Source of the DNA: Novosphingobium sp.
GTDB taxonomy: Bacteria; Pseudomonadota; Alphaproteobacteria; Sphingomonadales; Sphingomonadaceae
DNA: 41,108 bases
Reading direction: 5' to 3'
Assembly (NCBI GenBank): GCA_019510335.1
Contig: JAEKKO010000107.1
Location: forward strand, 1 to 41,108
Below, piece by piece: positions 5,788 to 27,762 of the stretch. The position numbers and the translations under genes were made by a program. Each line of letters starts with the position of its first letter. Position 1 is the first letter of the stretch. Under the pieces are notes generated by a model that was given only the letters and a program-made list of their open reading frames with translations, made no database searches and was not told the origin of the DNA.

Positions 5788-7497
5788 GTGGACACCGCGA
5801 CAATGCTCAAGACTGGCGAGGCCGCGGACGATCTGTCGATCATCCGCGGCATTCCGCTGGCCGAGGAAAAGGGCATCGGCGGGCTGACGCTGGCCGGCTA
5901 TGTTCGCGAGATCACCGAACGCTACGGCCCCCGCGAGGCCGCGGTCATTTACCTCGACGGCGAGGTCCGGCGCTGGACCTACACGGACTTGTGGGAACGA
6001 TCGTTCGAGGTGGCGCGGGCGCTGCTCGCCTGCGGCACCGGCAAGGGCACGCGCGTCGGCATTCTCGCGACTAATCGGCTCGAGTTCCTTTCTTGCGTTT
6101 TCGGTACCGGGCTCGCCGGCTGCGTGCCGGTTACGATCAGCACATTCTTCACCGCAGCGGAGATCGACACCGTCCTCAAGATGGCCGGCTGCTCGGTGTT
6201 GCTGCTGGAGCGCCAGGTCCTCAAGAAGGATTTTGCCGAAATCCTTGCCGAGCTCGAGCCGCAAGTCGCGACCGCCGAGGGTGGCAACCTCGCGTCCAGC
6301 CGGTTCCCGTTCCTTCGCCATCTCGCCATGGTCGATACAGACGAGAGCTTTGGCGCGATCGAGGGCTGGAGCACGTTCCTGGCGCGCGGACGGACGGTGG
6401 CGCCCGAGCTGGTTGAAGCGGCCGCCGCGGCAGTGACGCCAGCAGATCCCGGAATCCTCAAGTTCTCTTCAGGTTCGACCGGGAAGGCCAAGGGCATTCT
6501 CTCGGCCAATCGCGCGGTGTGCCTGCAGCTGTGGCGCTGGCCGCAGTGGTACGCGATCCAGGAGCCACCGCGGACCTGGTCGGCGAATGGCTTCTTCTGG
6601 TCGGGCAACTTCGCCATGGCGCTCGGTGGGACGCTTTCGGCCGGAGGGTCGCTGGTGCTCCAGCGCTGGTTCGACGCCGAGGAAGCGTTGCAGCTGATGG
6701 AGACCGAGAAGGTCACGATGCTGCTCGCCTGGCCGCACCAGTGGGCGCAGCTGATCGCTGCTCCGAACTATGAGAACGCGGACCTGTCGAATCTCTATTA
6801 TATCGACTGCACGACGCCCGTGGCTCGGCACCGGACCGTGCATACCCAATGGCGCGAGCCGGCGCAGGCATACGGCAATACCGAGTCGTTCACGCTGATT
6901 TCGGTATTCGCCTCCGGCACTCCGGAGGACATAGCTGGAAAGACCCACGGGGCTCCCACTGCCGGTTCGACCATCAAGGTCGTCGACCCCCTCACCGGAG
7001 TGACGGTGCCGCGTGGGGAGCGGGGCGAGATCGCCTTCAAGGGCCCCACCCTGATGCTCGGCTACGTCGGCATCCCGCTCGACGAGTCGCTCGACGATGA
7101 GGGCTTCTTCCGCACCAACGACGGCGGCTATGTCGACGACCGCGGCCGCCTCGTCTGGGAAGGCCGCCTTAACGACATCGTCAAGACCGGCGGCGCCAAC
7201 GTATCGCCGCTCGAGGTCGACGAGATCATCCGCGCGTGCCCCGGCGTGAAGCTCGTCCAGACCGTCGGGGTGCCCGACGAGCTCCTCGGCGAACTGGTCG
7301 TCAGCTGCATAGTCCCGCACCACGGCGCGACCCTCGACGAGCCGACGATCCGCGACTTTGCCCGCGAGAAGCTGGCCAGCTTCAAGGTCCCGCGGCGGGT
7401 GCTGTTTTTCGCCGAGGACGAGCTCAAGACCACCGGCAGCGCCAAGATTAAGACCGCCGAACTGCGCAAGCTCGCCGCGGAGCGGCTGGCGGGCTGA
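5788..7497 (+). CDS. Acyl-CoA synthetase (AMP-forming, ANL superfamily)
   Basis: This is a 569-residue adenylate-forming ligase that would activate a carboxylic acid to its CoA ester via an acyl-AMP. Core motifs are present in order: P-loop SSGSTGKAKG (~residue 228), the A5-like AYGNTES, GEIAFKGPTLMLGY, the adenylate-binding TNDGGYVDDRGRL, and the hinge GRLNDIVKTGGANVSP. The C-terminal catalytic Lys region reads TGSAKIKTAEL. The start is either GTG 5788, 4 bp after the dehydratase stop, or ATG 5803; neither has a strong SD, consistent with translational coupling. It is probably cotranscribed with acuI and the dehydratase. The substrate (fatty, aryl or cyclic acid) cannot be read from sequence. 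Confidence 0.9.
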   Translation: MDTATMLKTGEAADDLSIIRGIPLAEEKGIGGLTLAGYVREITERYGPREAAVIYLDGEVRRWTYTDLWERSFEVARALLACGTGKGTRVGILATNRLEFLSCVFGTGLAGCVPVTISTFFTAAEIDTVLKMAGCSVLLLERQVLKKDFAEILAELEPQVATAEGGNLASSRFPFLRHLAMVDTDESFGAIEGWSTFLARGRTVAPELVEAAAAAVTPADPGILKFSSGSTGKAKGILSANRAVCLQLWRWPQWYAIQEPPRTWSANGFFWSGNFAMALGGTLSAGGSLVLQRWFDAEEALQLMETEKVTMLLAWPHQWAQLIAAPNYENADLSNLYYIDCTTPVARHRTVHTQWREPAQAYGNTESFTLISVFASGTPEDIAGKTHGAPTAGSTIKVVDPLTGVTVPRGERGEIAFKGPTLMLGYVGIPLDESLDDEGFFRTNDGGYVDDRGRLVWEGRLNDIVKTGGANVSPLEVDEIIRACPGVKLVQTVGVPDELLGELVVSCIVPHHGATLDEPTIRDFAREKLASFKVPRRVLFFAEDELKTTGSAKIKTAELRKLAAERLAG

Positions 7498-11355: not shown

Positions 11356-12093
11356 GTGGCCAAGACGATCGTCATTACCGGCGCCGGCGATGGACTGGGG
11401 CGGGCGCTCGCCCGTCGCTTCGCCCGCGATGGCGAAACCGTCATTCTGCTCGGCCGGACATTGGCTAAAGTTGAGGCGGTGGCGGAGGAGTTGGGCACGC
11501 CCGCGCTCGCGATCCAATGTGACGTGACGTCGCCGGAGTCGGTGCGCGCCGCGTTCGACCGGATCGCCGAACATCATCCGCGGATCGACGTGCTCATCAA
11601 CAACGCGGGCATGTTCGAGCCGTTCGCGCTCCATGAAGCCTCGGATGACAAGATCCTCGGGCTGGTGCTGACCAACCTTGCCGGCCCGATCTTTTGCGCC
11701 CGCGAAGCGCTGCGGTTGCTTGGTCGCGGTGGCCACCTCGTCAACGTCACCAGCGAGTCGGTGCGGGTGAAGTTCCCGATGCTGTGGATGTACGAGGGTA
11801 CCAAGGTTGCGCTCGAGCACATTTCGGAAGCGGTCGGCCGCGAGCTGGAAGGCGAGGGCATTCGGGTCAGCGTGGTTCGCGCCGGGCCGATGATGGACGA
11901 GACCAAGACCGCCTCGACGTGGCCGGTCGACGTGGCCATGCGGTTCCACCAAGCCTCGGCCGCGGTGGGGCTCGACCTCCGTACGCGGCCCGTATCCCAC
12001 TACGATTCCGTCACCGACGCCTTTCGCGCGGTGATCGACATGCCGCCCGACGTCAATTTGCCGCTCGTCGCGATCGGTGCCTGGAAGGCCTGA
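11356..12093 (+). CDS. Short-chain dehydrogenase/reductase
   Basis: This is a 245-residue classical SDR. The cofactor motif is TGAGDGLG (residues ~8-15), the structural motif is NNAG, the catalytic Ser lies in VNVTSES and the catalytic Tyr-Lys pair in MYEGTK. The start is GTG 11356, following GGGAGAAAG. It would interconvert an alcohol and a ketone or aldehyde with NAD(P)(H). It is 31 bp upstream of an aldehyde dehydrogenase gene, so an alcohol-to-aldehyde-to-acid sequence is plausible. The C-terminal region lacks the usual DGG motif (it ends VNLPLVAIGAWKA), so the substrate pocket differs from FabG-like enzymes. The substrate is unknown. Confidence 0.88.
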   Translation: MAKTIVITGAGDGLGRALARRFARDGETVILLGRTLAKVEAVAEELGTPALAIQCDVTSPESVRAAFDRIAEHHPRIDVLINNAGMFEPFALHEASDDKILGLVLTNLAGPIFCAREALRLLGRGGHLVNVTSESVRVKFPMLWMYEGTKVALEHISEAVGRELEGEGIRVSVVRAGPMMDETKTASTWPVDVAMRFHQASAAVGLDLRTRPVSHYDSVTDAFRAVIDMPPDVNLPLVAIGAWKA

Positions 12094-12124: not shown

Positions 12125-13591
12125 ATGCCTAATCTTCCCGATGCCAAGCTGTTCATCGACGGCGAGCTGCGCGATGCCGCCAGCGGCAAAACTTACGACA
12201 TCATCGGGCCGTGGACCGGTCAGCCGGTCGGCAAGGCCGCCGATGCGGGCGCGGTGGACGTCGAGGCCGCGATCGTCGCCGCGCGCCGCGCCTTCGACGA
12301 GACCGACTGGTCGACCGCCCACGACAAGCGCCTTGAGCTGGTCAAGAAGTATCGCGAGCTGTTCGAGCGCCACAAGGACCGGCTCGTCCAGCTCGCCGTG
12401 CAGGAAGCTGGCGCCGCGCAAGGCGCCGTCCAGCGCGCGCATGTGCACATGGCGCTCGATGGGTGGGACGACTACATTCGCGTCTTCCCGCAAGTGAAGT
12501 GGGAGCATGAGTATCCTAAGCGCGAGGCGTTCGGCTCGATGCACAGGCGGTTCGCCGTCTATGAGCCGGTCGGGGTGGTCGGGGCGATCACGCCATGGAA
12601 CGTGCCGCTGTACGTCAACATCGGCAAAGTCGTCGCGGCGCTGCTCGCCGGCTGTACGGTCATTCTCAAGCCGGCGCCGAACACGCCGGGGATGGGCGCG
12701 ATCTTCGGTGAGCTGGCGAACGAAGCAGGCTTCCCCAAGGGCGTGATAAACGTCGTGTTCGGCCAGGATCCGGTGCTCGCCGGCGAGATGCTGGTGACCG
12801 ATCCCCGCGTCGACCTGATCTCGTTCACCGGCTCGACCGGCGTCGGCAAGCGGATCATGGAGCAGGGCGCCAAGACCCTAAAGCGCGTGTTCCTCGAGCT
12901 CGGCGGCAAGTCGGCCAAGATCGTGCTCGAGGACGCTCCGAACTTCGCCCAGGAAGTCGCGCAGACGATGCTGGTGTTCCACGCCGGGCAGGGCTGCGCC
13001 GTGCAGTCGCGGCTGCTCGTCCCGCGCAGCCGGTATGAGGAAGCCAAGCAGATCCTCAAGCACGCTTACCAGTCTTACGGCGACAGCTGGGGCGACCAGA
13101 ATGATCCGCAGCACATCATGGGTCCCGTCATCTCGCAGCGCCAGATGGAGCGGGTGATGAGCTACATCGAGCTCGGCAGCCAGGAAGGAGCGACCCTGCT
13201 CCACGGCGGCCAGGCGCGCCCCGACAAAGGCGGCGGCTACTTCATCGAGCCGACGGTTTTCGTCGACGTCACCAATGACATGCGGATTGCGCAGGAGGAG
13301 ATCTTCGGTCCGGTGCTGGTCGTGATCCCGTTCGAGGACGACGAAGACGCAATCCGCATCGCCAATGAGAGCGCCTATGGCCTCTCGGGCGGGGTCAGCT
13401 CCGGCGATCAGGAACGGGCGATGCGTGTGGCGCGACGCATCCGCACCGGGTCGGTGAGCGTCAATGGCGGCATGTGCATTGCCGGCGACATTCCCTTCGG
13501 CGGCTACAAGGCGAGCGGCATCGGCCGTGAGTGGGGCTTGGAAGGGATCGAGGAGTTTCTGGAGACCAAGATCATCGCCGTCGCGGCGTAG
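12125..13591 (+). CDS. NAD(P)-dependent aldehyde dehydrogenase
   Basis: This is a 488-residue ALDH superfamily enzyme, normal in length. It has the core PWNVPLYVNIGKVVAAL segment, the cofactor loop FTGSTGVGKRI, the general-base Glu in LELGGKSAKIV, and the nucleophilic Cys in HAGQGCAVQSR. The C-terminal EEIFGPVLVVIPF and PFGGYKASGIGREWG elements are typical. The ATG at 12125 follows AGGAAA; the ORF-track start at 12077 lies within the SDR gene. It would oxidise an aldehyde to a carboxylate that the upstream acyl-CoA synthetase could activate (inference). It sits in an operon with the SDR and a TetR regulator. Confidence 0.93.
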   Translation: MPNLPDAKLFIDGELRDAASGKTYDIIGPWTGQPVGKAADAGAVDVEAAIVAARRAFDETDWSTAHDKRLELVKKYRELFERHKDRLVQLAVQEAGAAQGAVQRAHVHMALDGWDDYIRVFPQVKWEHEYPKREAFGSMHRRFAVYEPVGVVGAITPWNVPLYVNIGKVVAALLAGCTVILKPAPNTPGMGAIFGELANEAGFPKGVINVVFGQDPVLAGEMLVTDPRVDLISFTGSTGVGKRIMEQGAKTLKRVFLELGGKSAKIVLEDAPNFAQEVAQTMLVFHAGQGCAVQSRLLVPRSRYEEAKQILKHAYQSYGDSWGDQNDPQHIMGPVISQRQMERVMSYIELGSQEGATLLHGGQARPDKGGGYFIEPTVFVDVTNDMRIAQEEIFGPVLVVIPFEDDEDAIRIANESAYGLSGGVSSGDQERAMRVARRIRTGSVSVNGGMCIAGDIPFGGYKASGIGREWGLEGIEEFLETKIIAVAA

Positions 13592-13607
13592 CGGTCTGGA
13601 GGAGCAC

Positions 13608-14345
13608 GTGGCTGAGCCCAAACCGGGCACGGGGGCGCGGCGCGAGGACAACGCGCCCGCTTCCCGTGGGCGCGCCAGCCAGGATGCGCTCAGCCATAAC
13701 CTCAGTGGCCAGCGTCTCGGCCGCAAGGGCCGGGACACTCGCGAGCGCATTCTCAGCGCTGCGGTCGAGCTGCTTTACAAATCGCCGACCGATACGCCGA
13801 TCTCGATGAGTGCGGTCGCCCGCTTCGCCTCGCTCGGGATGACCTCGCTCTACAACTACTTTGCAGACCTCACCGAGCTGCTGCTGGCGGTGCTCGAGCC
13901 GGTCATGGCTACGGCCGAGCAAGCTTACCTCGCGCCGTTGCGCACGCGCTGGAGCGATGACGAGCTTGGGGAGCGGTGCACCGCCTTCGTCGCGGCGTAC
14001 TTTGCATTCTGGCACCGCCACGCCCGCCTGCTGCACTTGCGCAACCAGATTTCCGACCGGGGCGATCATCGGATGACCATGGACCGCATCCGCGCCACCC
14101 AGGCGATCATCCGCCTCGTTGTCGTGCAGATGGACGGTGATCCGGGCACGCCGCGTTCCTGTGAATTCGCCATGGCAACGATGCTGATGATCGCGATCGA
14201 ACGCTCCGTGACGCTCTCGACGACCTTCGAGCTGCCCGCCCTGGTTGCGCAAAACATCCAGCACGACGACGAGCACTTCCTGCGCCCCGGTGCGCGCCTG
14301 CTCGAGCTGGCGATCCGCGATATGCGGAGGGGGAAGGGCGCGTAG
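13608..14345 (+). CDS. TetR/AcrR family transcriptional regulator
   Basis: This is a 245-residue TetR regulator starting at GTG 13608, with a strong SD (CTGGAGGAG) 5 nt upstream; the tracked ORF runs into the ALDH gene. A charged N-terminal extension of about 45 residues precedes the HTH: DTRERILSAAVELLYKSP, then ISMSAVARFASLGMTSLYNYF. The C-terminal ligand domain has no recognised signature. It is the last gene of the SDR-ALDH operon and convergent with the enoyl-CoA hydratase gene, 32 bp away. It probably regulates its own operon or the adjacent acyl-CoA dehydrogenase operon (inference). Confidence 0.88.
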   Translation: MAEPKPGTGARREDNAPASRGRASQDALSHNLSGQRLGRKGRDTRERILSAAVELLYKSPTDTPISMSAVARFASLGMTSLYNYFADLTELLLAVLEPVMATAEQAYLAPLRTRWSDDELGERCTAFVAAYFAFWHRHARLLHLRNQISDRGDHRMTMDRIRATQAIIRLVVVQMDGDPGTPRSCEFAMATMLMIAIERSVTLSTTFELPALVAQNIQHDDEHFLRPGARLLELAIRDMRRGKGA

Positions 14346-14377: not shown

Positions 14378-15196
14378 TCACCCCTTGCCCTTGCCGCCGA
14401 CGCCTTTGAGGTACTTTTCCATTCCGGTGAGATAGTCGGGGTTCAGCATCAGCGCGCTGTTGGCCATGCGCTCGACGTGGCGGCCCATCTCCGGGCCGAC
14501 TTCGGCGGCGAGCTCGATCGCGATCTTGGCCGCGCCCATCTGCTCGCCGTTCTGCTTGGCCAGGTGGCGGCAGAAGGCCATGACCTCGTCCGCGAAGCTC
14601 TCGTTCGGGAACACCTGGTGGACGAGCCCCATCGTGTACGCCATTTCCGCCGGGGCAGGCTTGTTCGCCATGATCAGCCAGCGCGCCCAGTGGGGCCCGC
14701 ACATCCGTGACAGGCGGCTGACGCCGTTGGAGGCCGGCAGCACTCCGAACAGCCCTTCGGGAAAGGCATAGCCGGCGCTTGTCGCCGCGAGACGGAAGTC
14801 GCACGACAGGCTCAGCTCGAGCCCGCCGCCGACGCACATCGCGTGATGAGCGACCACGAACGGTTTTTCGATGTGCTCCATCTCGTCCCACAACTGCTGC
14901 ATGTTGTTGAGATTGAGGCGGTGGTTCTCGCGGATGCCGCGGGCGGTGTTCCCGGTCGGCGAGATCTGCTTCTGGTTGCCGGACTTGAGGTCGGCCCCGG
15001 CGCAGAAATAGCGCCCGGTGGCGCGGATCAGCATGACCTTGAGATCGTCGGTGTCCCGGAAGTGGATCACCGCGTCGCTCAGCAGGTCCATCATTTCGCG
15101 GGTGATGGCGTTGAGCTTGTCCGGGCGGTTGAGCGTGCAGACGATGATCCCCTCTTCGGGGGTGTCGACCAGCAGGTGGGGGGCTTCGTCAGGCAT
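14378..15196 (-). CDS. Enoyl-CoA hydratase/isomerase (crotonase family)
   Basis: This is a 272-residue crotonase-fold protein. The track starts at a TTG (15211) that overlaps the upstream gene's stop; ATG 15196 with GAGGAA upstream is preferred. The two oxyanion-hole regions are visible (LNRPDKLNAIT and FCAGADLKSG), and both typical acidic positions are kept: Glu in GGGLELSLSCD and Glu in FPEGLFGVLP. That makes hydratase or hydratase-like activity plausible. The pattern is closest to generic EchA proteins, whose substrates are not predictable. It is 11 bp downstream of the acyl-CoA dehydrogenase gene on the same strand, giving consecutive beta-oxidation steps of dehydrogenation then hydration. 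The C-terminus ends in a Gly/Lys-rich tail (GVGGKGKG). Confidence 0.9.
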   Translation of the reverse strand: MPDEAPHLLVDTPEEGIIVCTLNRPDKLNAITREMMDLLSDAVIHFRDTDDLKVMLIRATGRYFCAGADLKSGNQKQISPTGNTARGIRENHRLNLNNMQQLWDEMEHIEKPFVVAHHAMCVGGGLELSLSCDFRLAATSAGYAFPEGLFGVLPASNGVSRLSRMCGPHWARWLIMANKPAPAEMAYTMGLVHQVFPNESFADEVMAFCRHLAKQNGEQMGAAKIAIELAAEVGPEMGRHVERMANSALMLNPDYLTGMEKYLKGVGGKGKG

Positions 15197-15207
15197 TTCC
15201 GGGTTCC

Positions 15208-17418
15208 TCAAGCGCGCGTGCGGGGCAAGCCGAGGCCTTTCTCGGCGATCATCGAGCGGTGGACCTCACTGGTTCCGCCGTAAATCGTCGTTCCCTGGGC
15301 GTGGCGGTAGCACTGGTTGACCAATGCCGCGGCGCCTTCGCGCTTGGACAGCGACAGCGGCGCGGTGAGGTCGAGCAGGTCACGGGAATCGCTGAGGAAT
15401 TTCTCGGACGAGTACATCTTGCTCATCGGCCCGTAGGCGAAGTTCGGCTTCTTCTCGACGCTCGCCCACTGGGAGCGGTAAGTCAGCATTTCGGAGATCC
15501 ACAAGTGCGCGGTTGAGCGGGCGAGACGCACTTGCGCTTGCAGGTCCTCGATCAGCGGGCGGCCCTGCCACTGGATCTCGCGGGACAGTTCCTCGGCCGC
15601 TTCGATCATCTTGCGCATGACTTTCCCGAAGCCGCCGCCGTGCTCGAGCTCAAGGCTCGCGCTCATCGTGCGGACGCCCTCGTCGACGCCGCCAAGGCGC
15701 CAGCTGTCGGGGATGCGGACACCGTCGTAAAAGGTGATGTTGGTCCGCTCGTCCTGGAAGGTGTAGACCGGCTGGATCGTCACCCCTTCTGCCTTGAGCG
15801 GGACGATGAACATGGTCAGGCCCTTGTGCTTCGGCACCTCGGTGTTGGTGCGTGTCAGCATCAGGACGTAATCGGCGAGGTTGGCGCCGCTGGTGAACAT
15901 CTTGGTGCCGTCGATCCGCCAGCCGTTGCCATCCGGCGTGGCGCGGCACTGAGCCGCGAACACGTCCGAGCCCGAGCCCGGCTCCGAATAGCCGAGGCTG
16001 CACAGCGCATCCCCGTTGAGCACCCGCGGCAGGACCTCGCGCTTCAGCTCGTCGCTGCCGAAGCGGTGCATGATCATCGCGACCATCGCCGCGACGTTCG
16101 CGGCCGGGGTGTTGTAGCCGTTGTGCTCGAACGCCCCCATCGCCGCGATCTTGGCATAGGGCGTGATGTTGCGCCCGGACAGCTCCTGCGGCAGGCCGAG
16201 GAACAGCAACTTGGCTTCGGCCAGCGCCTTGTGAACCTCGGGCACATAGCCTTCCCACGAATAGTGGAACTTGGCGCGCATCTCGTCGGTGACTTTGGTC
16301 CGGAAGAACTCGTTGATCTCCTCGACCATCGCCCGCGCCTCGTCGCCAAGGTCGAAGTCGATCGGCACCTCGCCCGCGTCCGGCAACTGCGCCGCCTCGC
16401 CAGAGTAGATTCGGCGGGCCGCTTCCTCGAGGCAGCGTTGCGGGTCTCCGAACACCAGCGGCCACGCTTTGGCGCGCAAGGTGAAGAGGTGAATGTCGTA
16501 CTCGGTTGTCAGGCCGTAGCCGCCAAAAGTGTGAAGCGCCTGGGCGACGCTGCGGCCGGCGGCCTGGCTGGAATACCAGAACGCGAGGCTGATCGCGGCG
16601 CCGGCCTCGTCCGAGCGGTCGGCGATGTCGCGGATCGCCTTCCACACCAGGAACTTGCCGCCATCGACTTCGCAGATGAGGTCGGCAAGCGGGTGCGAGA
16701 TGCCCTGGAAAGTGCCGATCAGCTGGCCGAATTGCTTGCGCTCGTTGGCATAAGCCGAGGCGAGCCGCAGGGATTCGCGGCCGATGCCGGAGAGGCCCGC
16801 GGCGATCAGCAGTTTCCATTCCTCGATCGCGGCGTCGAACGCGGCAACCGCAGCGCTGCCGCTAGCGAGGGTCGTCGACTTCAGCGCCCCGAGGTCGATC
16901 TCCGCGAGCGGGGTCGAGGAGAGGTTGTCCTCGGCTTTGCGCGCGCTCGCCGTCACCTCGACCAGCACGACCGCGTCGCCACGGCGAGCGACGACCGTTT
17001 CAGCAACCGCGCCTCCGCCGATCCATTGCTTGGGCTGCTCTCTCAAATCGTGCAACGCGATACTCGCTACCGCCTCGCCTGCGACAACTCGGCCAAGCAG
17101 GTCGCCATGGCTCTCGCCGCCGAGCTGACCGAGCAGCCGCGCCGCAACCAGCACTTCGGCGAGCGGGCCGGAGACGAGCGTGCGCCCAGCCTCCTCCATC
17201 AGCAGCGTCGCGTCGAACAGCCCCAGGCCCATCCCGCCGGCGGCTTCAGGGACGCGCATTCCGAACGCGCCCAGCTCGGCCAGCCCGCGCCACATCTCGG
17301 CGTCGAACCCGCCGGTCTCGTTCGCGGCGCGGACGCGGACCATCGAGCTGGTGTCGTCGAGGAACCGCGCGAAGCTGTCGCGCATCATCTGCTGTTCGTC
17401 GGTGAGGTCGAAATTCAT
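15208..17418 (-). CDS. Double-length acyl-CoA dehydrogenase (two fused ACAD domains)
   Basis: This is a 736-residue protein, about twice a normal acyl-CoA dehydrogenase (~380-400 aa). The first ACAD-like half (residues 1 to ~345) runs from MNFDLTDEQQMMRDSFARFL to HTFGGYGLTTEYDIHLF. The second half (~350-736) has the FAD/substrate signature YSEPGSGSDVFAAQ and GTKMFTSGANLADY, and ends IYGGTSEVHRSMIAEK. In the second half the MCAD-type catalytic position reads YGGT (no Glu), while a Glu near residue 592 (LELEHGGG) lies where isovaleryl-type enzymes keep the base (inference from pattern). Fused two-domain ACADs of the FadE34 type act in actinobacterial sterol side-chain catabolism. ATG 17418 is chosen because it begins the canonical N-terminus; the track start at 17526 is an upstream extension. 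It is cotranscribed with the hydratase. Confidence 0.87.
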   Translation of the reverse strand: MNFDLTDEQQMMRDSFARFLDDTSSMVRVRAANETGGFDAEMWRGLAELGAFGMRVPEAAGGMGLGLFDATLLMEEAGRTLVSGPLAEVLVAARLLGQLGGESHGDLLGRVVAGEAVASIALHDLREQPKQWIGGGAVAETVVARRGDAVVLVEVTASARKAEDNLSSTPLAEIDLGALKSTTLASGSAAVAAFDAAIEEWKLLIAAGLSGIGRESLRLASAYANERKQFGQLIGTFQGISHPLADLICEVDGGKFLVWKAIRDIADRSDEAGAAISLAFWYSSQAAGRSVAQALHTFGGYGLTTEYDIHLFTLRAKAWPLVFGDPQRCLEEAARRIYSGEAAQLPDAGEVPIDFDLGDEARAMVEEINEFFRTKVTDEMRAKFHYSWEGYVPEVHKALAEAKLLFLGLPQELSGRNITPYAKIAAMGAFEHNGYNTPAANVAAMVAMIMHRFGSDELKREVLPRVLNGDALCSLGYSEPGSGSDVFAAQCRATPDGNGWRIDGTKMFTSGANLADYVLMLTRTNTEVPKHKGLTMFIVPLKAEGVTIQPVYTFQDERTNITFYDGVRIPDSWRLGGVDEGVRTMSASLELEHGGGFGKVMRKMIEAAEELSREIQWQGRPLIEDLQAQVRLARSTAHLWISEMLTYRSQWASVEKKPNFAYGPMSKMYSSEKFLSDSRDLLDLTAPLSLSKREGAAALVNQCYRHAQGTTIYGGTSEVHRSMIAEKGLGLPRTRA

Positions 17419-17620: not shown

Positions 17621-20281
17621 CTAGCGGCCGAACTTGTAGCGCAAGCGCGCTCCCCACATCCGCGGCTCGCCGATGATGTTGGAGACGAAGCCCGACGCCG
17701 CCTGGACGTTCGAGTGCAGGTAGACGTGCGCATTGGTGACGTTGGTCACGAACACGCCGAGGTCGACCGGCATTCCGCCAACATTATCCCACGTCGCATT
17801 CAGGTTGAGCAACTTGCTGCTCGGCAGCACGCCGAACTCGCTGGCGAAGGAGTAAGGCTGGACCGCCACGAAGTTCGAACCCTGCTGGACGCCGACGAAC
17901 GGGTCCGACACGGCCCTGTACCGCGACGTGTAAACCCACGTAGCACCCACCGTGACCTTGCCGACGCTCGGCGGCAGCGGGAACGTGTAGTTGCCGCTGA
18001 GAACCAGCTTGTGCGGGATGGAGTTCGGGATGACCGATCCGACCGGCAGCGGCCGGATATCGGTGAACGGCAGCCCGCGCGCGGTGACCAGGCCTTGCAG
18101 ATCGACGATGCTCAGGATCTTGGTGTTCAGGTAGGCGTAGGATGCCTCGAGCCGGAGTCCCTCGAAGGGGGTGATCCCGGCCTCGACCTCGACGCCCCAC
18201 AGCCGCGACTTCGCGGCATTGATGATCGCCGTGGTCTGGGCACACAGCGACACCGGCAGACAGCTCAACCCGATCTGCAGCTGCTGGTTTCGGAAGTCGT
18301 TGTAGAAAGCCGAGACGTTGAAATAGCCGGGCATCATCCCGCGCCAGCTGGTCTTCGCGCCCACTTCGTAAGTGTCGACCTTCTCCGGCCCGTAGTCCTG
18401 CAGGGTATCGGCGGCGAACGAGGCGACCGCTCCTTGACGGTAACCGCGGGACCACTTGGCGTACAGTAGGACGTCCTGCATCGGCTTGAAGTCGACGTCG
18501 AGCAGCCACGTCGGAGCATGGCTCTTTACGTTGTGGTGCTCGGTGCACGCGCCGAAGCGCTGGTCCAGCGGGCGGTACTGATTGGTGGCCGAGCCGGGCC
18601 TGCCAAAGGTCACGTCGTTGAGGCAGTAGAAGTAGGTCCCTGCCGGAAAGGTGATCGGCGTCCCGTTGAGGACCGAGGCGACTGGAGCCGAGTAGATGCG
18701 CTCGGCGGTGATCCGGTAGATGCTGTCGACCTCGTCCCAGGTGTAGCGGATGCCGCCAGTCAGCTTGAGCTTGTCGGTGACGTCGTAGCTGGTCTGGAAG
18801 TAGATCGCCTTGTCGCGGAACTTGGTCAGCGTGTCCTGATAAGCGAGACGGCCGAGCGAGCTGCCGTTCTGACCCGGGACGCAGTTGAAGGTGGCAAGGT
18901 CAATGCACGGTGTCTGTGTCGTCGACTGGATGCCCGATACGCCGAGCGGATCGCTGTTCTCCAGGTAGAAGCCGCCCTGCCAGATCCACCGGCCACCATC
19001 GGAACGGCCCTGGAACTGCAGCTCTTCGACGAACGAGGATTCGCGGTTGCTGTAGCCGTTGGGGATCGAATGGGTGACGTTGAACGGCTGGACGTTGTTC
19101 GGGCTGGTCTCGGTCCCGCGCACGGGAACTACGGCGCTGCCGAGGTTCGGCACGATCTTGTAGGCGCCGAACAGGTCAAGGTCGGTGATGCCGCGCAGCT
19201 CGCCGTAGCTGAGGATGTTCTTCACCGTGAGGTTGTCGCTGGCGCGCCAAGTGGTGTTGTTGATGACCTGCCACGTCTCGAGATCGGATTGCTCGTCGGG
19301 CAGTGGGTTGGACACCGACCAGAACCCGAGCGTCGCTTCGCGCGCCATCTGGTCGCAGGCCTGCTGGCCGGTGGCGACCGTCGAAGCGGAGAACGCCGCG
19401 TATCCGGGAGGCGCCGCGGTGAAGCAGCGGGTGATCTTCGGGATCAGGCCAGTGCTCTTCGACTTCGACCAGTTGGCGACCGTGTAGTTCTCGATGTCGG
19501 GCGTGAAGTCGGCGACGACGCTGACCCGGGCCGCCCAATAGTCGACGCTACCGCCGGCGTTGCCGTTCGGACCGAAGCCGATCGTGCCGGCGTTCTTGAG
19601 GTAGCCGTCGCGCTTGTTGCGATCGAGGCCGAAGCGCACTTTGAAGGTGTCGTTGATCGGGACGTTGAGCACCGCCTGCACCCGACGCAGATTGTAATCG
19701 CCAAGCTGGCCTTCAACGTAGCCCTCGAGCCGGTCGGTCGGCTTCTTCGGCACGATCAGCACCGCGCCACCGGTCGAGTTGCGGCCGAACAGCGTGCCCT
19801 GGGGACCTTTGAGGACCTGCACGTTCTGCAGGTCGAACAGATAGCCCGGGCCGGCGCCTTCGCCGCCCTGGGTCGCGCCCGAGGCGCGCGGCATCACGAC
19901 GTCGGCGAAGAACGTACCAACGGTCGCCGTGGTGCGCTGCTCCTGGGTGAAGCCCCGGATGGTCCACGTGGTGTTGTCGGCGCCGTAGCGGTTGTTGGTC
20001 GACAGGCCCGGGGTGTAAGTTGCGATATCGCGGGCCGACTGGATGTTGTTGTTGGTCAACTTGGTCTCGTCGAACACCGTGATCGAGATCGGCACGTCCT
20101 GCAGGCGCTGTTCGACCCGCTGGGCAGTGACGATGATGTCGTTGGCGTTGGCCGGATTGCTCGCCTGGTCGGTCTCCCCGGTCGACTGCGGCGCGGTCTG
20201 CGCCAGGGCCGGAGCGGCCATGGCGGCGGTCAGCGCGGATGCCGCCAGCAACGCGATTTTCCACTGTTGATTAAACTGCAT
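17621..20281 (-). CDS. TonB-dependent outer-membrane receptor (paralogue A)
   Basis: This is an 886-residue TonB-dependent receptor. The signal peptide is at about 1-27 (LLAASALTAAMAAPALA). It is followed by a TonB-box-like DIIVTAQR and a plug with LQDVPISITVFDETKL and GPQGTLFGRNSTGGAVLI. The long beta-barrel ends EPRMWGARLRYKFGR. The start ATG follows GAGGGACGGAA. It is a close paralogue of the receptor at 20629-23358: the leader, plug and C-terminal strands align almost word for word, while the loops differ. This layout is typical of sphingomonad receptors for organic substrates rather than siderophores, and it sits among acyl-CoA genes. The ligand is unknown. It has its own terminator and a 347-bp upstream gap, so it is probably transcribed on its own. 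Confidence 0.94.
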   Translation of the reverse strand: MQFNQQWKIALLAASALTAAMAAPALAQTAPQSTGETDQASNPANANDIIVTAQRVEQRLQDVPISITVFDETKLTNNNIQSARDIATYTPGLSTNNRYGADNTTWTIRGFTQEQRTTATVGTFFADVVMPRASGATQGGEGAGPGYLFDLQNVQVLKGPQGTLFGRNSTGGAVLIVPKKPTDRLEGYVEGQLGDYNLRRVQAVLNVPINDTFKVRFGLDRNKRDGYLKNAGTIGFGPNGNAGGSVDYWAARVSVVADFTPDIENYTVANWSKSKSTGLIPKITRCFTAAPPGYAAFSASTVATGQQACDQMAREATLGFWSVSNPLPDEQSDLETWQVINNTTWRASDNLTVKNILSYGELRGITDLDLFGAYKIVPNLGSAVVPVRGTETSPNNVQPFNVTHSIPNGYSNRESSFVEELQFQGRSDGGRWIWQGGFYLENSDPLGVSGIQSTTQTPCIDLATFNCVPGQNGSSLGRLAYQDTLTKFRDKAIYFQTSYDVTDKLKLTGGIRYTWDEVDSIYRITAERIYSAPVASVLNGTPITFPAGTYFYCLNDVTFGRPGSATNQYRPLDQRFGACTEHHNVKSHAPTWLLDVDFKPMQDVLLYAKWSRGYRQGAVASFAADTLQDYGPEKVDTYEVGAKTSWRGMMPGYFNVSAFYNDFRNQQLQIGLSCLPVSLCAQTTAIINAAKSRLWGVEVEAGITPFEGLRLEASYAYLNTKILSIVDLQGLVTARGLPFTDIRPLPVGSVIPNSIPHKLVLSGNYTFPLPPSVGKVTVGATWVYTSRYRAVSDPFVGVQQGSNFVAVQPYSFASEFGVLPSSKLLNLNATWDNVGGMPVDLGVFVTNVTNAHVYLHSNVQAASGFVSNIIGEPRMWGARLRYKFGR

Positions 20282-20628: not shown

Positions 20629-23358
20629 TTAGCCGCCGAACCGGTAGCGCAGGCGAAAGCCCCACATCCGCGGCTCGCCGATAGTCGACGAGATGAAGCC
20701 GCGCTGCTGGTTGTCGTTGATCTGCAGGATCACGTGCTCGTTCGTCACGTTGGTCATGAAGAACGACAGGTCGACGGGCAGCTGGGCGACGTTCTCCCAG
20801 GTGGCGTTGAGGTTCAGCACCGTCGAGGCCGGAGCAATACCTCCGCCTGAGGTGGTCACGAGGCCGTCCGCCGCCGTCTGCGCCAGCGCGAGTATCTTTC
20901 CATCGCTGTTGCGAATGACGACACCATCCGAAACGATTCGGCGACGCGACTGGTAAACCAAGGTTCCACCGACGGTGAACTTTCCGACCGTTGCGGGAAG
21001 CGGGAACGTATAGTTGGCGGAAGCCACCACCTGATGCGGCGGGCCCGAATTGGCAATCGTGTTGCACTGTTCGCCGGCGCATAGTTTGCCGCCGGAGTTT
21101 ACCAGCGGTGCGGTGAAAGCGTTGTACGGCGGGAGCACGGTTGGCACGTTGACTGCCAGCAGGCGCGCGTTGATGTAACCATAGGCGAGATCGAGGCGGA
21201 GGCCTTCGAAGGGCGAGACGTTGAAGTCTGCCTCGATACCCCAGATACGCGACTTGCCCGCGTTGATGATCGTGGCGTTGCCGCCGCAGATCACGGTGAA
21301 ATTGGGCAACGCCGGATTGCAGGCGACACCCAGCTGCAGCTGCTGGTTGCGCAAGTTGTTGTAGTAGCCGGATAGGTTGAAGCTTCCCGGCATGGCGCCG
21401 CGCCAGCTGGTCTTCGTACCCACCTCGAACGTGTCCACCGTCTCCTTGTCGTAGGGCTGGAGCGGATCGGGACCGAAGATCGCCAGGCCGCCCTGGCGAT
21501 AGCCGCGCGACCACTTGCCATAGACCATGACGTTATCAACTGGCTTGTAGTCGGCCTGGAGCAACCAGGTCGGCGCCTGTGTGTTCTTCTCCAGATTCTG
21601 GGCGCAGTGGTTAAGGCGGTCGGCGTAAGTGAAGTAGGTCGCAAAGGCCGCGGCCGTCGCCGCGGGCGGTCCATTGTAGCCAGGGGCCGTCGGATTGCTG
21701 CACGCGAACCGGACGTTGCTGGGGGTCGTGGAGAATACTGACGTCTCATTGATCAGAAACGTGTGCATCTTATCCCAGGTGTAGCGAATGCCCCCGGTCA
21801 GCGTTAGCTGATCGGTCAGCTTGTAGCTGGCCTGCGCATACAGCGCGTAGTCGCGGAACTTGGTCTTCTGGAGTGAGTACGAGCCCGTGCCGCCTGAGAT
21901 ACCCCCTGCGCCATTCACTCCAAATGTAAAGGAAGGGCCGCCAAGCCCCGACGAGGGAAGGCAGGCGAACGTGAGGATGTCCGTGCAGGCCGTGAACGAG
22001 GCGGTCTGGACGCCGGAAATGCCCAGCGGGTCACTGATTTCGGCATAGGCACCTGCCTGCCAGGTAAAACGGCCGCCCGCCGGATGGCCCTGGAACTGCA
22101 GTTCCCCGACCATCGATCTCTCGGCATTGGTATAGCCGGTATCGCCATTGTTATGCGTGAAGGCGAAGCCGCGAACCTGGCTGGTCGTCTCGGTGCCGGC
22201 GACAACTCCCGGAAGCAGCGAGTAGTTGCCGAACAGGTCGAGGTTGGTCTTGCCCTTGAACTCGCCGTAGGAGAGGATGTTCTTGACCGTCAGGCTGTCG
22301 CTCGCCCGCCAGGTCAGCGTGTTGATCACCTGCCACTGGTCGCTGATCGCTTCGGAATCGGGCAGTCGATTTGACACCGTCCAGAATCCGTAGGGCGCCT
22401 CACGCGCCATCTGCGCGACCGACTCGTTGCCGAAGAATGCCTGATTGGAGCTGGCCGGGCATGGCGGCGTGACGCCAAAGGCGCAAGGAAATGCCGTGGT
22501 TACCTTAGGGATGACGCCATTACTTTGAGAATGCGTGTACGTGGCTATCGTGTAGTTTTCGAGGTCAGGTGAAATGTCGAGCACCGCACTCACGCGCCCG
22601 GCCCAGTAATTCACATCGCCCAAACCGCGGTTGCCGAAGTGGCCGTCACCGAAATTACCAATGTTCTTGAGATAGCCGTGCCGGTCCATGTGATCGAAGC
22701 CGGCCCGCAGCTTGAAGCTGTCGGATACCGGGATGTTCACAACGCCCTGCAGGCGCCACATGTTGTAATTGCCAGCGCTGCCTTCGACATAGCCCTCGAG
22801 CTTGTCGGTCGGCTTCTTCGGCACAAGCAGCACCGCGCCACCGGTCACGTTGCGGCCGAACAGGGTGCCCTGCGGGCCCTTCAGGACCTGGACGTTCTGG
22901 AGGTCGAACAGCGCACCCGGCCCGGCGCCGTCGCCGCCGAAGGTCGCGCCGCTGCCGCGCGGGGCGACGACGTCGGCGAAGAATACGCCGACTGTCGCGA
23001 AGCTGCGCTGCTCCTGATAGAACCCGCGGATGGTGAAGGTCGTGTTGTCCGCACCGTAGCGGTTGTTGACCGCGAGGCCGGGCGTGTAGTTGGCAAGCTC
23101 CCGGACGCTGCTGACGTTTGCGCTGTCCAGCTTGGCCTGATCGAATACCGTGATCGAGATCGGCACGTCCTGGAGCCGCTGCTCGACGCGCTGGGCAGTG
23201 ACGATGATGTCGTTGGTGTTCTCTGCCGGCGGCTGGTCGGCCGACTGGTCGGTGGTCTGGGGTGGCGCGGCGGTCTGGGCAAATGCCGGTGCGGCGCAGG
23301 CGACGGTGAGTGCCGATGCCCCAAGCAGAGCACTCTTTACGGTTTGGTGAAGTTGCAT
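20629..23358 (-). CDS. TonB-dependent outer-membrane receptor (paralogue B)
   Basis: This is a 909-residue TonB-dependent receptor. The track extends to 23556, but ATG 23358 follows GGGGGAAAG and begins a signal peptide (about 1-27, ending CAAPAFA). The TonB-box-like DIIVTAQR, the plug (LQDVPISITVFDQAKL, GPQGTLFGRNVTGGAVLL) and the terminal strand (EPRMWGFRLRYRFGG) match paralogue A closely. The barrel loops diverge and include Gly/Ser-rich and Cys-containing insertions (ACTDILTFACLPSS). The two genes look like an old tandem duplication with divergence in the ligand-contacting loops (inference). Parts of this gene look lower in GC than paralogue A by eye. The ligand is unknown. Confidence 0.93.
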   Translation of the reverse strand: MQLHQTVKSALLGASALTVACAAPAFAQTAAPPQTTDQSADQPPAENTNDIIVTAQRVEQRLQDVPISITVFDQAKLDSANVSSVRELANYTPGLAVNNRYGADNTTFTIRGFYQEQRSFATVGVFFADVVAPRGSGATFGGDGAGPGALFDLQNVQVLKGPQGTLFGRNVTGGAVLLVPKKPTDKLEGYVEGSAGNYNMWRLQGVVNIPVSDSFKLRAGFDHMDRHGYLKNIGNFGDGHFGNRGLGDVNYWAGRVSAVLDISPDLENYTIATYTHSQSNGVIPKVTTAFPCAFGVTPPCPASSNQAFFGNESVAQMAREAPYGFWTVSNRLPDSEAISDQWQVINTLTWRASDSLTVKNILSYGEFKGKTNLDLFGNYSLLPGVVAGTETTSQVRGFAFTHNNGDTGYTNAERSMVGELQFQGHPAGGRFTWQAGAYAEISDPLGISGVQTASFTACTDILTFACLPSSGLGGPSFTFGVNGAGGISGGTGSYSLQKTKFRDYALYAQASYKLTDQLTLTGGIRYTWDKMHTFLINETSVFSTTPSNVRFACSNPTAPGYNGPPAATAAAFATYFTYADRLNHCAQNLEKNTQAPTWLLQADYKPVDNVMVYGKWSRGYRQGGLAIFGPDPLQPYDKETVDTFEVGTKTSWRGAMPGSFNLSGYYNNLRNQQLQLGVACNPALPNFTVICGGNATIINAGKSRIWGIEADFNVSPFEGLRLDLAYGYINARLLAVNVPTVLPPYNAFTAPLVNSGGKLCAGEQCNTIANSGPPHQVVASANYTFPLPATVGKFTVGGTLVYQSRRRIVSDGVVIRNSDGKILALAQTAADGLVTTSGGGIAPASTVLNLNATWENVAQLPVDLSFFMTNVTNEHVILQINDNQQRGFISSTIGEPRMWGFRLRYRFGG

Positions 23359-23480
23359 CTTTCCCCCTGTGCTGGCTCGGACGCGTCGTCGCGTGCGTCC
23401 CTGACCGATTGTTCCGGCGGCCGAATCAAGGCTAACGGCCCCGTTCCCGGTCCTCATCGCAACATTATTATGCAAATCAA

Positions 23481-23497
23481 AGCCTGGGGGGTGCCAA
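23481..23497 (-). promoter_or_regulatory. Possible sigma-54-type promoter upstream of receptor paralogue B
   Basis: On the minus strand TTGGCAC-CCCCC-AGGCT gives a full TGGCAC -24 element and a GC doublet at the right spacing, but the -12 element reads AGGCT rather than TTGCT. The start would fall near 23470, leaving a leader of about 110 nt. No sigma-54 activator gene is in the window, so this is weak. Confidence 0.2.
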
Positions 23498-23596
23498 ACT
23501 TTGCCCTGGCAGGAAATAATTCCCAATGATGTCAAATCGGCAACAGGTGCATCCACGCGGTCGGATGGACGCGGGCGGCGACAATTTAGTGCCCTT

Positions 23597-24424
23597 TTAG
23601 GCCTTTGCGCGCGACATCATCCGGCTGAGGTCAACTTGCCCGGTTGTGACTCCGCCCATGAACCCGCCGTCGACCGGCAGGACCACGCCGTTGACGATCG
23701 TCGCCATCGCGCTGTTGAGGAACACCAGCGGTGCGGCCTGCTCGTACGGAGTGGAGTAGCGGCCGAGCGGCTCGGCGGCAGCGTCGACGATTTCCTTGCC
23801 CGCAGTGGCGTGGAACGCCGCCATCATCGGGGTTTGCGTCGGCGACGGCAGGGTGCAATTGATGCGGATGCCGCGCTTGATCAGGCTGGCGCCCATGAAC
23901 TGGGTCCAGACGATCACCGCTTCCTTGGAGAAAGCGTAGCCTTCCGCGACGGTGTCCGCGTTGGCCGCGCACCAGTCGACGGCCGCCTGAAATCCTTGGG
24001 TGGCGATCAGCTCCATGTTCGTCGGCACGCGCTGGCTCCAGCCGAGGCCGCCGGTCGAGGCGATCGATGCGATCGCGCCGCCTTCGCCCATCCGCTCGAG
24101 CACCTTCTCGGTCACGTGGCGGGTGCCGATGAAGTTGACCTTCATCGTTTCGATCGGCGGGAAGGCGCCGCCTCCGGGCAGCCCGGCGCAGTTGAACAGC
24201 GCGTCGACATTGCCGCCGACCGCGGCGACGCCGGCCTCGATCGAGGCGGGATCGCGCAAGTCGACCTTGTTGAAGCTGGCGAGCGGAAGGGCGACGTCCT
24301 TGTAGTCAAATCCGTGCACTTCGGCGCCGAGGTCCAGCAGGAGCCTGGCAGCCGCCTCGCCCATCCCCGAAAAGCAGCCGGAAACAATAACGCGCTTGCC
24401 CTTGTAGCCGAGAACGTCCGCCAT
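23597..24424 (-). CDS. Short-chain dehydrogenase, coniferyl-alcohol / 3-alpha-hydroxysteroid dehydrogenase-like
   Basis: This is a 275-residue SDR. ATG 24424, after GGAAGGAA, is used rather than the track start at 24790. The cofactor motif is SGCFSGMG (residues ~14-21), with NCAG, the catalytic Ser in SIASTGG, the Tyr-Lys pair in YAFSKEA, and the C-terminal PVDGGFMGG. The variant glycine motif with Cys, the short first half and the long insertion before the Tyr resemble the coniferyl-alcohol dehydrogenase and Comamonas 3-alpha-HSD group, which oxidise bulky aromatic or steroid alcohols. It is upstream of receptor B on the same strand with a 238-bp gap. The exact substrate is not deducible. 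Confidence 0.82.
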   Translation of the reverse strand: MADVLGYKGKRVIVSGCFSGMGEAAARLLLDLGAEVHGFDYKDVALPLASFNKVDLRDPASIEAGVAAVGGNVDALFNCAGLPGGGAFPPIETMKVNFIGTRHVTEKVLERMGEGGAIASIASTGGLGWSQRVPTNMELIATQGFQAAVDWCAANADTVAEGYAFSKEAVIVWTQFMGASLIKRGIRINCTLPSPTQTPMMAAFHATAGKEIVDAAAEPLGRYSTPYEQAAPLVFLNSAMATIVNGVVLPVDGGFMGGVTTGQVDLSRMMSRAKA

Positions 24425-24589
24425 GATCCTGGTTCCTTCCGTGGCCGCCAATGGCCGCAAATCGCGACCGCATAAGCTGGAAGGCTGGGCCACAATCAAT
24501 TGCGGCAAGGTCAAATCGCCGCGGCGATGGCCGCGGAGCCGGTAAGGCGCTCCTTTTTCCGATGCTTGCAAATCGCGCGGCTGCGAGAC

Positions 24590-24614
24590 CTTGCGCCAAC
24601 CGCCACTTGCGCCA
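24590..24614. promoter_or_regulatory. Direct repeats upstream of the DUF2889-amidohydrolase genes
   Basis: CTTGCGCCA occurs twice, 16 bp apart start to start (24590-24598 and 24606-24614). The repeats lie in the divergent gap between the SDR and the DUF2889 gene, 41 bp before the short ORF at 24655. They are a candidate site for the nearby IclR protein (inference). Confidence 0.3.
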
Positions 24615-24654
24615 TGATCGGGAGTGCGACGGAATCGCGCCGGGAGAAACTTCG

Positions 24655-24693
24655 ATGGCCGATCTGGATCGTCACTTGCTGGGGCGCGCCTGA
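24655..24693 (+). CDS. Short upstream ORF, possible leader peptide or frameshifted N-terminus
   Basis: ATG 24655 follows CGGGAGAAA at good spacing and encodes 12 residues (MADLDRHLLGRA) before TGA. The stop is only 2 nt before the GTG start of the DUF2889 gene. It may couple translation into that gene, or it may be the true N-terminus separated by a one-base change near the GGGG run at 24681. It is too short for the ORF track. Confidence 0.35.
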   Translation: MADLDRHLLGRA

Positions 24694-24695
24694 AC

Positions 24696-25451
24696 GTGGC
24701 CACGGCAGCCGCCAACCAACCGGAGCGCACCGCGCCGCGCCCGGGGTTTCGCCGCCGGATCGCCATCCGACCGCAATCAGGGTCGGTCACAGCTGCGCTC
24801 GAGGATGATTACCATCGGATGACGGTCGACCTCTACCACGACGGGCGGACGATAACGTCCGTCGAGCCTGCGATGGAGCGCTGGCCATGGACGACGTGTC
24901 CGGGCGCGGAAGCCGTGCTCCGCGAAACCTTCACCGGAGTTGAGCTTTGGGCAGCGGCGCGACGTGGGGGCAAGACCGCTAACTGCACGCACTTGTACGA
25001 CCTCGCTGTTTTCGCGGCGGCGCATGCGTCCGACACGGCATCGACGATCTACGACATGGCAGTGTCCGATCCCGTCGACGGGGAAATCATTGCCGAGCTT
25101 TCCCGCAACGGCAAACCGATGCTGCGCTGGGTTCTGCGCGACGATCGCCTGCAAGAGCCGCCGTTCCTTGCCGGCAAGCACTTGCGGGAGTTGCGCGAGT
25201 GGATTGCGACGCTGCCGGCGGACGAGCGCGAGGCTGCGCGGATCTTGCAATGGGGTGGCATCCTCGCCCATGGCCGGGCGATGGCGCTCGACTTCCTGTC
25301 CGATCCTGCGGGCCGCCCGCCGAGCTGCTATACCTATCAGCCGGAGAACGCCGCGGGGACGGTCCGCATCGGCGAGATCATCGACTTCAGCCGGGCGGCG
25401 CGCCAGCCGCTTGCCGATCCCGGCGAGGCGCAGCATAGCAAGCGGGTGTGA
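24696..25451 (+). CDS. DUF2889 family protein
   Basis: This protein of about 251 residues matches the DUF2889 pattern: FRRRIAIRP near the N-terminus, LEDDYHRMTVDLYHDG, WTTCPGAEAVL, then NCTHLYDLAVFAAAHA. The conserved Cys and His residues (TTCPGA, CTHLYD) are suggestive of a metal or catalytic site, but I know of no established activity to assign. GTG 24696 is chosen because it precedes the conserved region and is coupled to a short upstream ORF with a good SD; no ATG is suitably placed. The gene ends 43 bp before the amidohydrolase on the same strand, so the two probably form one operon. No signal peptide or membrane segment is visible. Confidence 0.75.
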   Translation: MATAAANQPERTAPRPGFRRRIAIRPQSGSVTAALEDDYHRMTVDLYHDGRTITSVEPAMERWPWTTCPGAEAVLRETFTGVELWAAARRGGKTANCTHLYDLAVFAAAHASDTASTIYDMAVSDPVDGEIIAELSRNGKPMLRWVLRDDRLQEPPFLAGKHLRELREWIATLPADEREAARILQWGGILAHGRAMALDFLSDPAGRPPSCYTYQPENAAGTVRIGEIIDFSRAARQPLADPGEAQHSKRV

Positions 25452-25494: not shown

Positions 25495-26820
25495 ATGGAG
25501 ATGAACGACTTGGTGATCGTCAGCGTTGATGATCACATCAGCGAGCCACCCGACCTGTTCGACAAGCACGTGTCCGGGGCAGACCTCGAAACCGCGCCGA
25601 AGCTCATCACCGACGTCACCGGCGGGGAGATGTGGGTCTACCAGGGAATGCAATTCCCGTGCGTGGGGCTCAACGCAGTCGTCGGCCGTCCGTTCGAGGA
25701 ATACGGAATGGAGCCGACCTCGCTCGAGCAGATGCGCAAGGGCGTTTATGACGTCCACGCCCGCATCGGCGACATGGACGTCAACGGAATCGCCGCGTCG
25801 CTGAACTTCGGCAGCGTGTTCGATTTCGCCGGCGGCAGGCTTGCGCGCGCGCCTGACAAGAAGCTCGCCGTCCGCCACCTCGCCGCCTACAACGATTGGC
25901 ACATCGACGAGTGGTGCGGGGCTTACCCGGGGCGGTTCATTCCGTGCGCGATCCTCCCGACGTGGGACATGGATGCGACCATCGCCGAGATCAAACGCGT
26001 GTCCGACAAGGGCTGCCACACCGTCTCGATCAACGAGAACCCGACGGTGATCGGGCTGCCGAGCATCCACAACGACTACTGGGATCCGTTCTTCAAGGCG
26101 ATCAACGACTACGACGTCACGATCTGCCTGCACATCGGCGGGGGCAACCCGGCGCCGCATGCTTCGATGGAGACGCCGATCGAGGCGTGGATCTCGACGA
26201 TGCCGCTGACCATCGCGGTCGGCGCGGCGGACTGGCTGCAACTGGAGGAGTTGCAGCAGTATCCCAACCTGCGGATCGCCTTGTCCGAGGGCAGCATTGG
26301 CTGGGTGCCCTACTTCCTCGAGCGGGCGGACTTCTCGAATTCGCGGCACAAGGCGTGGACCAACTCGCGCTTTCCCGGGGACAAGAAGCCGAGCGACACC
26401 TTCAAGCAGCACTTCCTCAACTGCTTCATCGACGACGCGTTCGGGCTGCAGAACATCCAGTACATCGGCGAGGACATGATCGCCTATGAGTGCGACTACC
26501 CGCACTCCGACACCTTGTGGCCGGAGGTTCCCGAACGGCTGTGGCCGACGATCAACCACCTCACCGACGAGCAGATCGACAAGATCACTCACCGCAACGC
26601 CATGCGGTTCTTCCGCTTCCCACTCTTCGATCACTTCAAGCGCGAGGAAATCACAGTGGGGGCGCTGCGCGAGCGGGCAAGGGCGGCGGGCGTCGACACG
26701 ACCCCGAAGTCGTCGGGCGGCGAGCGCCCGCTGGCCGAAGGTGAAACCCGGCCGGTGACCTCGGGCGACATCATGAAGATGTTCGCGCGCCACGAAGACG
26801 AGCGCAAACAGGCGGCCTGA
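25495..26820 (+). CDS. Metal-dependent amidohydrolase (ACMSD-related, Amidohydro_2)
   Basis: This is a 441-residue TIM-barrel hydrolase or decarboxylase. ATG 25495 follows GGGAG; the ORF-track start at 24940 lies inside DUF2889 in another frame. The N-terminal metal site reads VSVDDHISEPPDLF, the mid-barrel His lies in ICLHIGGG, and the late Asp lies in ECDYPHSDTLWP. This DDH-type N-terminus is common in amidohydrolase-2 proteins of sphingomonads and mycobacteria. Relatives include ACMSD-type decarboxylases and ring-cleavage-product hydrolases, so it may act on a ring-derived carboxylate or beta-diketone. It is cotranscribed with DUF2889 and convergent with an IclR gene. The reaction is not established. 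Confidence 0.88.
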   Translation: MEMNDLVIVSVDDHISEPPDLFDKHVSGADLETAPKLITDVTGGEMWVYQGMQFPCVGLNAVVGRPFEEYGMEPTSLEQMRKGVYDVHARIGDMDVNGIAASLNFGSVFDFAGGRLARAPDKKLAVRHLAAYNDWHIDEWCGAYPGRFIPCAILPTWDMDATIAEIKRVSDKGCHTVSINENPTVIGLPSIHNDYWDPFFKAINDYDVTICLHIGGGNPAPHASMETPIEAWISTMPLTIAVGAADWLQLEELQQYPNLRIALSEGSIGWVPYFLERADFSNSRHKAWTNSRFPGDKKPSDTFKQHFLNCFIDDAFGLQNIQYIGEDMIAYECDYPHSDTLWPEVPERLWPTINHLTDEQIDKITHRNAMRFFRFPLFDHFKREEITVGALRERARAAGVDTTPKSSGGERPLAEGETRPVTSGDIMKMFARHEDERKQAA

Positions 26821-27700: not shown

Positions 27701-27762
27701 GATTCGTTCTCCCAAACGCGATTTTCCCGGGACAGTTGATTCCTGCCCCCGGGTTGTCAACA

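Follow-up and report, generated by a model that had tools for sequence, protein, structure and literature searches.

What does a single polypeptide carrying two acyl-CoA dehydrogenase (ACAD) domains do in an alphaproteobacterium, where does its active site lie, and on which class of acyl-CoA does it act? These questions are raised by a 736-residue open reading frame of Novosphingobium sp., found in a 41,108-nucleotide stretch of DNA (the window, meaning the whole stretch that was analysed). A previous sequence-only reading had described it as a fused double ACAD of a kind familiar from actinobacterial sterol degradation.

Two unequal halves and the active site

The features of the fused gene are as follows.

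15208 to 17418, minus strand: single-chain double ACAD, 736 aa, with its ATG at 17418 and its stop codon at 15208-15210
16399 to 17418, minus strand: N-half (residues 1-340), ChsE5/Tcur3481-like and without a catalytic base, with the FAD adenine/pyrophosphate motifs R227xxF230G231...Q238 and F298GGYG302
15211 to 16365, minus strand: C-half (residues 352-736), the ChsE4/Tcur3483-like putative catalytic module, with the flavin-side motif YSEPGSGSD...MFTS
15643 to 15645, minus strand: codon of Glu592, the proposed catalytic base, aligned with ChsE4 E247
15277 to 15279, minus strand: codon of Gly714 (in YGGT), in sequence alignments the site of the catalytic Glu of ordinary ACADs

Pfam recognizes two stretches each of Acyl-CoA_dh_N and Acyl-CoA_dh_1 and only one middle domain (residues 475-552), located in the second half. 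The module order is beta-like, then alpha-like. Full-length orthologues with 66 to 78% identity are present in many genomes, which places the fused feature far beyond chance. The NCBIfam equivalog matches of the protein (PigA, AcrC, and others) were all far under their cut-offs and were not used.

The closest solved sequences of the C-half are Tcur3483 (6wy8/6wy9) and Mycobacterium tuberculosis ChsE4 (4x28_A). In the alignment with the latter, E592 falls on ChsE4 E247, the catalytic base of that enzyme. All 22 aligned fused proteins have E592, whereas the neighboring E590 varies, and none of them has Glu at the YxGT site, which reads Y713-G714-G715-T716 here in place of the YEGT of canonical medium-chain enzymes. 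A second alignment of related loci gave the same partition: ordinary ACADs have Glu in YEGT and none at the alternative site, while split alpha subunits and fused proteins have Glu at the alternative site and none in YxGT. In each heteromeric pair, the conserved catalytic Glu occurs in only one subunit (PMC8399759). When the C-half was modeled with AlphaFold (pLDDT 84), the model retrieved ChsE4 and Tcur3483 chains from the PDB at Foldseek ranks 1 to 4, followed at rank 5 by Fic32-33, a two-chain ACAD-like complex of a Streptomyces biosynthetic system. We are therefore fairly confident that the C-half is the catalytic module and that Glu592 is its predicted base.

Among solved structures, the N-half is matched best, along its whole length, by Tcur3481, which pairs with Tcur3483. 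The N-half keeps the R227xxFG...Q238 and FGGYG motifs, which in ACADs bind the adenine/pyrophosphate portion of FAD, and it lacks the SEPGSGSD...TS flavin motif; conversely, the C-half keeps the flavin motif and lacks RxxFG. With the FAD motifs divided in this way, a single composite FAD site is expected per chain, in which the N-half would be a catalytically dead cofactor module. Although both halves are ACAD homologues, it is most improbable that each works as an enzyme in its own right with a separate FAD and base: besides the missing flavin motif, Pfam detects no middle domain in the N-half, where Phe323 and Trp201 take the place of Glu at the two base positions in alignments with solved relatives, and the C-half has no RxxFG motif. 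The full-length AlphaFold model, built from six alignment rows, was too poor (pLDDT 47) and was discarded, so that the composite site is proposed from these motifs and from the analogy with CasC described below.

Altogether, the sequence-only reading is borne out on the fusion of two ACAD domains in 736 residues, on YGGT replacing YEGT in the second half with loss of the canonical base, and on a glutamate near residue 592, exactly E592, as the probable base instead. The kinship it saw with heteromeric steroid ACADs extends to both halves by sequence and, for the C-half, by fold. Its expectation of FAD in each half must be given up, since the motifs point to one composite site per chain.

The arrangement found here, one alpha-like module with Glu at the E247 position and none in YxGT joined to one noncatalytic beta-like module, is that of the alpha2beta2-type steroid ACADs, and we consider it likely, from these sequence features, that the protein is a single-chain version of them in architecture and mechanism. 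The C-half resembles ChsE4 and the N-half ChsE5 of the M. tuberculosis pair ChsE4-ChsE5 (FadE26/FadE27, 4x28), which is the best fold match and differs in being actinobacterial, in consisting of two separate chains, and in acting on the cholesterol C8 side chain. M. tuberculosis FadE34 and CasC of Rhodococcus jostii RHA1 are fused steroid-24-oyl-CoA dehydrogenases. CasC has two fused ACAD domains in an order that, by its published description, matches ours; only its C-terminal domain bears the base, its N-terminal domain is needed for FAD, and it is active on bile-acid CoA esters (PMC8399759). Since this architecture has been published for CasC, the mechanism is not new. The pair Tcur3481-Tcur3483 of Thermomonospora curvata, the best sequence match of each half (fold rank 2-3), is again made of two chains, and it takes bile-acid-type substrates with C3 side chains preferred over C5 (PMC8399759). 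The proteobacterial bile-acid ACADs Scd1AB and Scd4AB, likened to our protein by description, follow the same reaction logic but are encoded by two separate genes.

A proteobacterial clade of fused enzymes

Full-length relatives with 71 to 74% identity occur in a Novosphingobium MAG, in Sphingomonas sp. OK281, on Sphingobium plasmids, and in the gammaproteobacterial Nevskiales (Sinimarinibacterium, Solimonas, and Stenotrophobium, with the lineage checked for Sinimarinibacterium). Within the genus, about a third of the genomes sampled (42 of 120) carry the fused ACAD, in versions of 40 to 78% identity. In the separate trees of the two halves, 18 fused proteins from proteobacteria group as a single clade (support 100/100 for the C-half and 100/99 for the N-half), and the actinobacterial fused proteins and the split proteins fall outside it in both, the N-half tree being weak at depth. 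The actinobacterial fused proteins compared (Rhodococcus, Nonomuraea, and M. avium) share 27 to 28% identity with the protein studied here, and their base is followed by Arg (ER), versus His or Gln (EH/EQ) in the proteobacterial clade; mechanistic details may thus differ from those of the actinobacterial relatives. As these three proteins lie outside the clade, we do not claim orthology with CasC or FadE34. The fused steroid-type design is already known from steroid degraders, but the actinobacterial framing of the earlier reading was too narrow, as the protein belongs to a proteobacterial clade of its own. Within this clade, the Nevskiales proteins nest among the sphingomonad ones in the half-trees, which suggests horizontal transfer.

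Other fused frames were encountered. On the M. branderi plasmid pJCM12687, a 1213-aa frame (L039:2534-6175), only the last third of which is annotated as a gene in PLSDB, encodes a fused ACAD with the catalytic half first and the cofactor half second; this reversed order points to more than one origin of the fusion. The Novosphingobium genome studied here contains a second fused ACAD (contig C49:9-1874, L059), 63% identical, cut by the contig end, and without the downstream hydratase. Distant matches of the genome scan (L013 to L019) were set aside as FadE-like long ACADs on the basis of length, identity, and match position only.

The linked hydratase and the conserved gene cluster

The neighbors of the fused gene in the window are the following.

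3572 to 4558, plus strand: AcuI-type acrylyl-CoA reductase, scoring over its NCBIfam cut-off and retained across the wider cluster
4590 to 5783, plus strand: MaoC-like (FAS1_DH) hydratase
5788 to 7497, plus strand: AMP-forming acyl-CoA ligase, likewise retained across the wider cluster
11356 to 12093, plus strand: short-chain dehydrogenase (SDR), conserved neighbor
12125 to 13591, plus strand: aldehyde dehydrogenase, conserved neighbor, with 71 to 80% identity across sphingomonad clusters
13464 to 14345, plus strand: TetR-like regulator, conserved neighbor, named from its sequence appearance only (no Pfam match at 1e-5)
14378 to 15211, minus strand: enoyl-CoA hydratase, directly downstream of the fused ACAD, with a likely ATG at 15196
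17621 to 20281, minus strand: TonB-dependent receptor, possibly for uptake
20629 to 23556, minus strand: second, tandem TonB-dependent receptor
23597 to 24790, minus strand: PRK12428-family SDR, above the NCBIfam cut-off, its true start probably internal
25495 to 26820, plus strand: amidohydrolase-superfamily protein close to DitZ, conserved neighbor, with the D-x-H, HIG, E, and DYPH motifs kept
26879 to 27763, minus strand: IclR regulator, conserved neighbor

The hydratase is linked to the fused ACAD. Its start lies about a dozen bases beyond the ACAD stop, so that the two are probably co-translated, and both crotonase-type Glu residues seem, as judged by eye, to be present. Among the 120 genomes of the genus, it is found in 40 of the 42 carriers of the fused ACAD and in none of the 78 noncarriers (p = 7.5e-30). 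The PRK12428-type SDR, whose family is named coniferyl-alcohol dehydrogenase by NCBIfam, adjoins the fused ACAD in Sphingobium RAC03, Sphingomonas OK281, the Novosphingobium MAG, and genomes G013 and G018; in the window, the two related tandem TonB-dependent receptors sit between them. The conserved AcuI-type reductase lies near the fused ACAD in Sinimarinibacterium as well; its presence hints that the pathway generates acrylyl-CoA or a similar enoyl-CoA.

In RAC03 and OK281, the genes adjoining the fused ACAD also encode a CYP101-like P450, a protein with a DUF35/OB-fold, and one with a thiolase fold. The last of these is closest to Ltp2 (6ok1); it lacks the thiolase Cys, keeps the Tyr, and carries the motif YDGF, versus YDHF in Ltp2 and YDCY in Sal. 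Such Cys-less YDGF proteins (e.g., L036:15806-16975 and L058:3346-4512) may form a new aldolase subgroup. Orthologues of the Ltp2-like and OB-fold proteins are present in the genome studied here, a fragmented MAG, on contig C17, apart from the fused ACAD. A second catabolic cluster of the same genome, on contig C104 (L060, L061), contains a split heteromeric ACAD pair, an Ltp2-like protein, a P450, a CoA transferase, and an amidohydrolase, as well as a TonB receptor akin to the two near the fused ACAD.

Substrate class and proposed pathway

The cluster probably serves to break down bulky natural compounds, and our best guess for the substrate of the fused ACAD, from the enzyme type and the neighboring genes, is a bulky, probably polycyclic acyl-CoA. 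On this point, the bulky polycyclic substrate hinted at by the sequence-only reading stands as the best inference from the neighbors; a sterol-type substrate is not supported, as 21 of the 42 carriers lack the KshA_C Rieske oxygenase. Three readings of the substrate were weighed.

The first, which we put slightly ahead while considering it tentative, is the CoA thioester of a polycyclic, diterpenoid-like terpenoid, processed in part by a dinuclear oxygenase. The amidohydrolase, encoded by a separate gene neighboring the ACAD, matches DitZ (8uyr, E = 5e-103) and PtmU3 (2e-24). It keeps the metal-ligand motifs of the PtmU3/DitZ/AibH2 dinuclear oxygenases, to which it is likened by sequence only, and is a candidate oxygenase. 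PtmU3 itself, a dinuclear-iron enzyme, serves as a beta-hydroxylase in the biosynthesis of diterpenoids and can act on substrates ligated to CoA (PMC7782822; see also PMC10811679). Moreover, the P450 of RAC03 is closest to CYP101 enzymes, e.g., CYP101J2 and the camphor hydroxylase. However, this P450 is missing from several clusters, the cluster of the window yielded no ring-hydroxylating oxygenase of whatever type, and the name DitZ weighs little, since our literature search turned up no paper describing it.

It is somewhat less probable that the substrate is not polycyclic at all (a branched, aryl-propanoid, or medium-sized acyl-CoA) and that the two-module design reflects mere ancestry. The coniferyl-alcohol dehydrogenase name of the neighboring SDR family, the conservation of the AcuI-type reductase, and the place of Fic32-33 as the next-best fold match would fit this possibility, but the enzymes of such arrangement characterized in the literature consulted act on steroid CoA esters (PMC8399759), and several neighbors resemble enzymes of bulky substrates.

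A steroid side chain (bile-acid or sterol), the substrate type of CasC and FadE34, appears unlikely, although the nearest solved relatives are steroid ACADs and a KshA_C Rieske oxygenase is present in this genome. In the genus sample, KshA_C is only weakly associated with the fused ACAD (21 of 42 carriers versus 24 of 78 noncarriers, p = 0.05); at E <= 1e-20, it is absent from the other 21 carriers, 18 of which are at least 99% complete. Half of the carriers thus lack KshA_C, which argues that the fused ACAD is independent of steroid-ring genes, and the assignment of the cluster to a steroid-ring pathway was rejected as weak; KshA_C being a single marker, the argument is not final. No steroid-nucleus genes were recognized within the window. 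Novosphingobium steroid degraders reportedly lack most of the known cholate side-chain genes (PMC4810484), so that an alternative would be needed; nevertheless, Sphingobium Chol11, a related sphingomonad, handles bile salts with the two-gene Scd4AB, without fusion, and Caenibius has Scd4AB too (PMC8399759, PMC12882949). A steroid as the specific substrate is therefore not supported. Apart from the cluster considered here, paralogous fused ACADs lie a few kilobases from KshA_C-type Rieske oxygenases in three instances (G012:C4, G016:C13, and G085:C6).

Returning to the single-chain version of the alpha-beta steroid-type ACADs, we propose the following model. The N-half would act as the beta module supplying the adenine/pyrophosphate side of the FAD site, and the C-half as the alpha module holding the flavin and the substrate and bearing the base Glu592. 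Two chains would probably associate, forming a pseudo-tetramer that contains two FADs and a pair of active sites. We infer that Glu592 takes the alpha-proton of the acyl-CoA while FAD takes the beta-hydride, yielding a 2-enoyl-CoA to which the linked enoyl-CoA hydratase would then add water. After hydration, the thiolase-fold protein and its DUF35 partner could carry out a retro-aldol cleavage, and the aldehyde dehydrogenase would oxidize the resulting aldehyde; the substrate is probably a side chain attached to a bulky polycyclic skeleton, either terpenoid or steroid. This order follows the Scd1AB-Shy-Sal-Sad scheme for the C5 side chains of bile acids, in which Scd1AB acts ahead of a hydratase, an aldolase, and an aldehyde dehydrogenase (PMC8399759, PMC12329534). 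Against the retro-aldol step, the Ltp2-like protein is devoid of the His or Cys of the known aldolase motifs. We give the pathway order and the substrate class roughly even chances.

With fold, base, and fused design already known, the enzyme itself is unsurprising. A more speculative and rather doubtful extension of our model is an undescribed pathway, spread horizontally among sphingomonads and Nevskiales, in which a CoA-tethered polycyclic terpenoid would be dehydrogenated, hydroxylated by the DitZ/PtmU3-like protein, and cleaved by a new type of thiolase-fold aldolase with the YDGF motif. The fused ACAD can serve to trace, in this genus and in Nevskiales, a gene cluster that is conserved but uncharacterised. 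If the substrate is indeed a polycyclic terpenoid or a steroid, this cluster would reveal a way of removing side chains without the known Scd1AB, Shy, and Sal genes.
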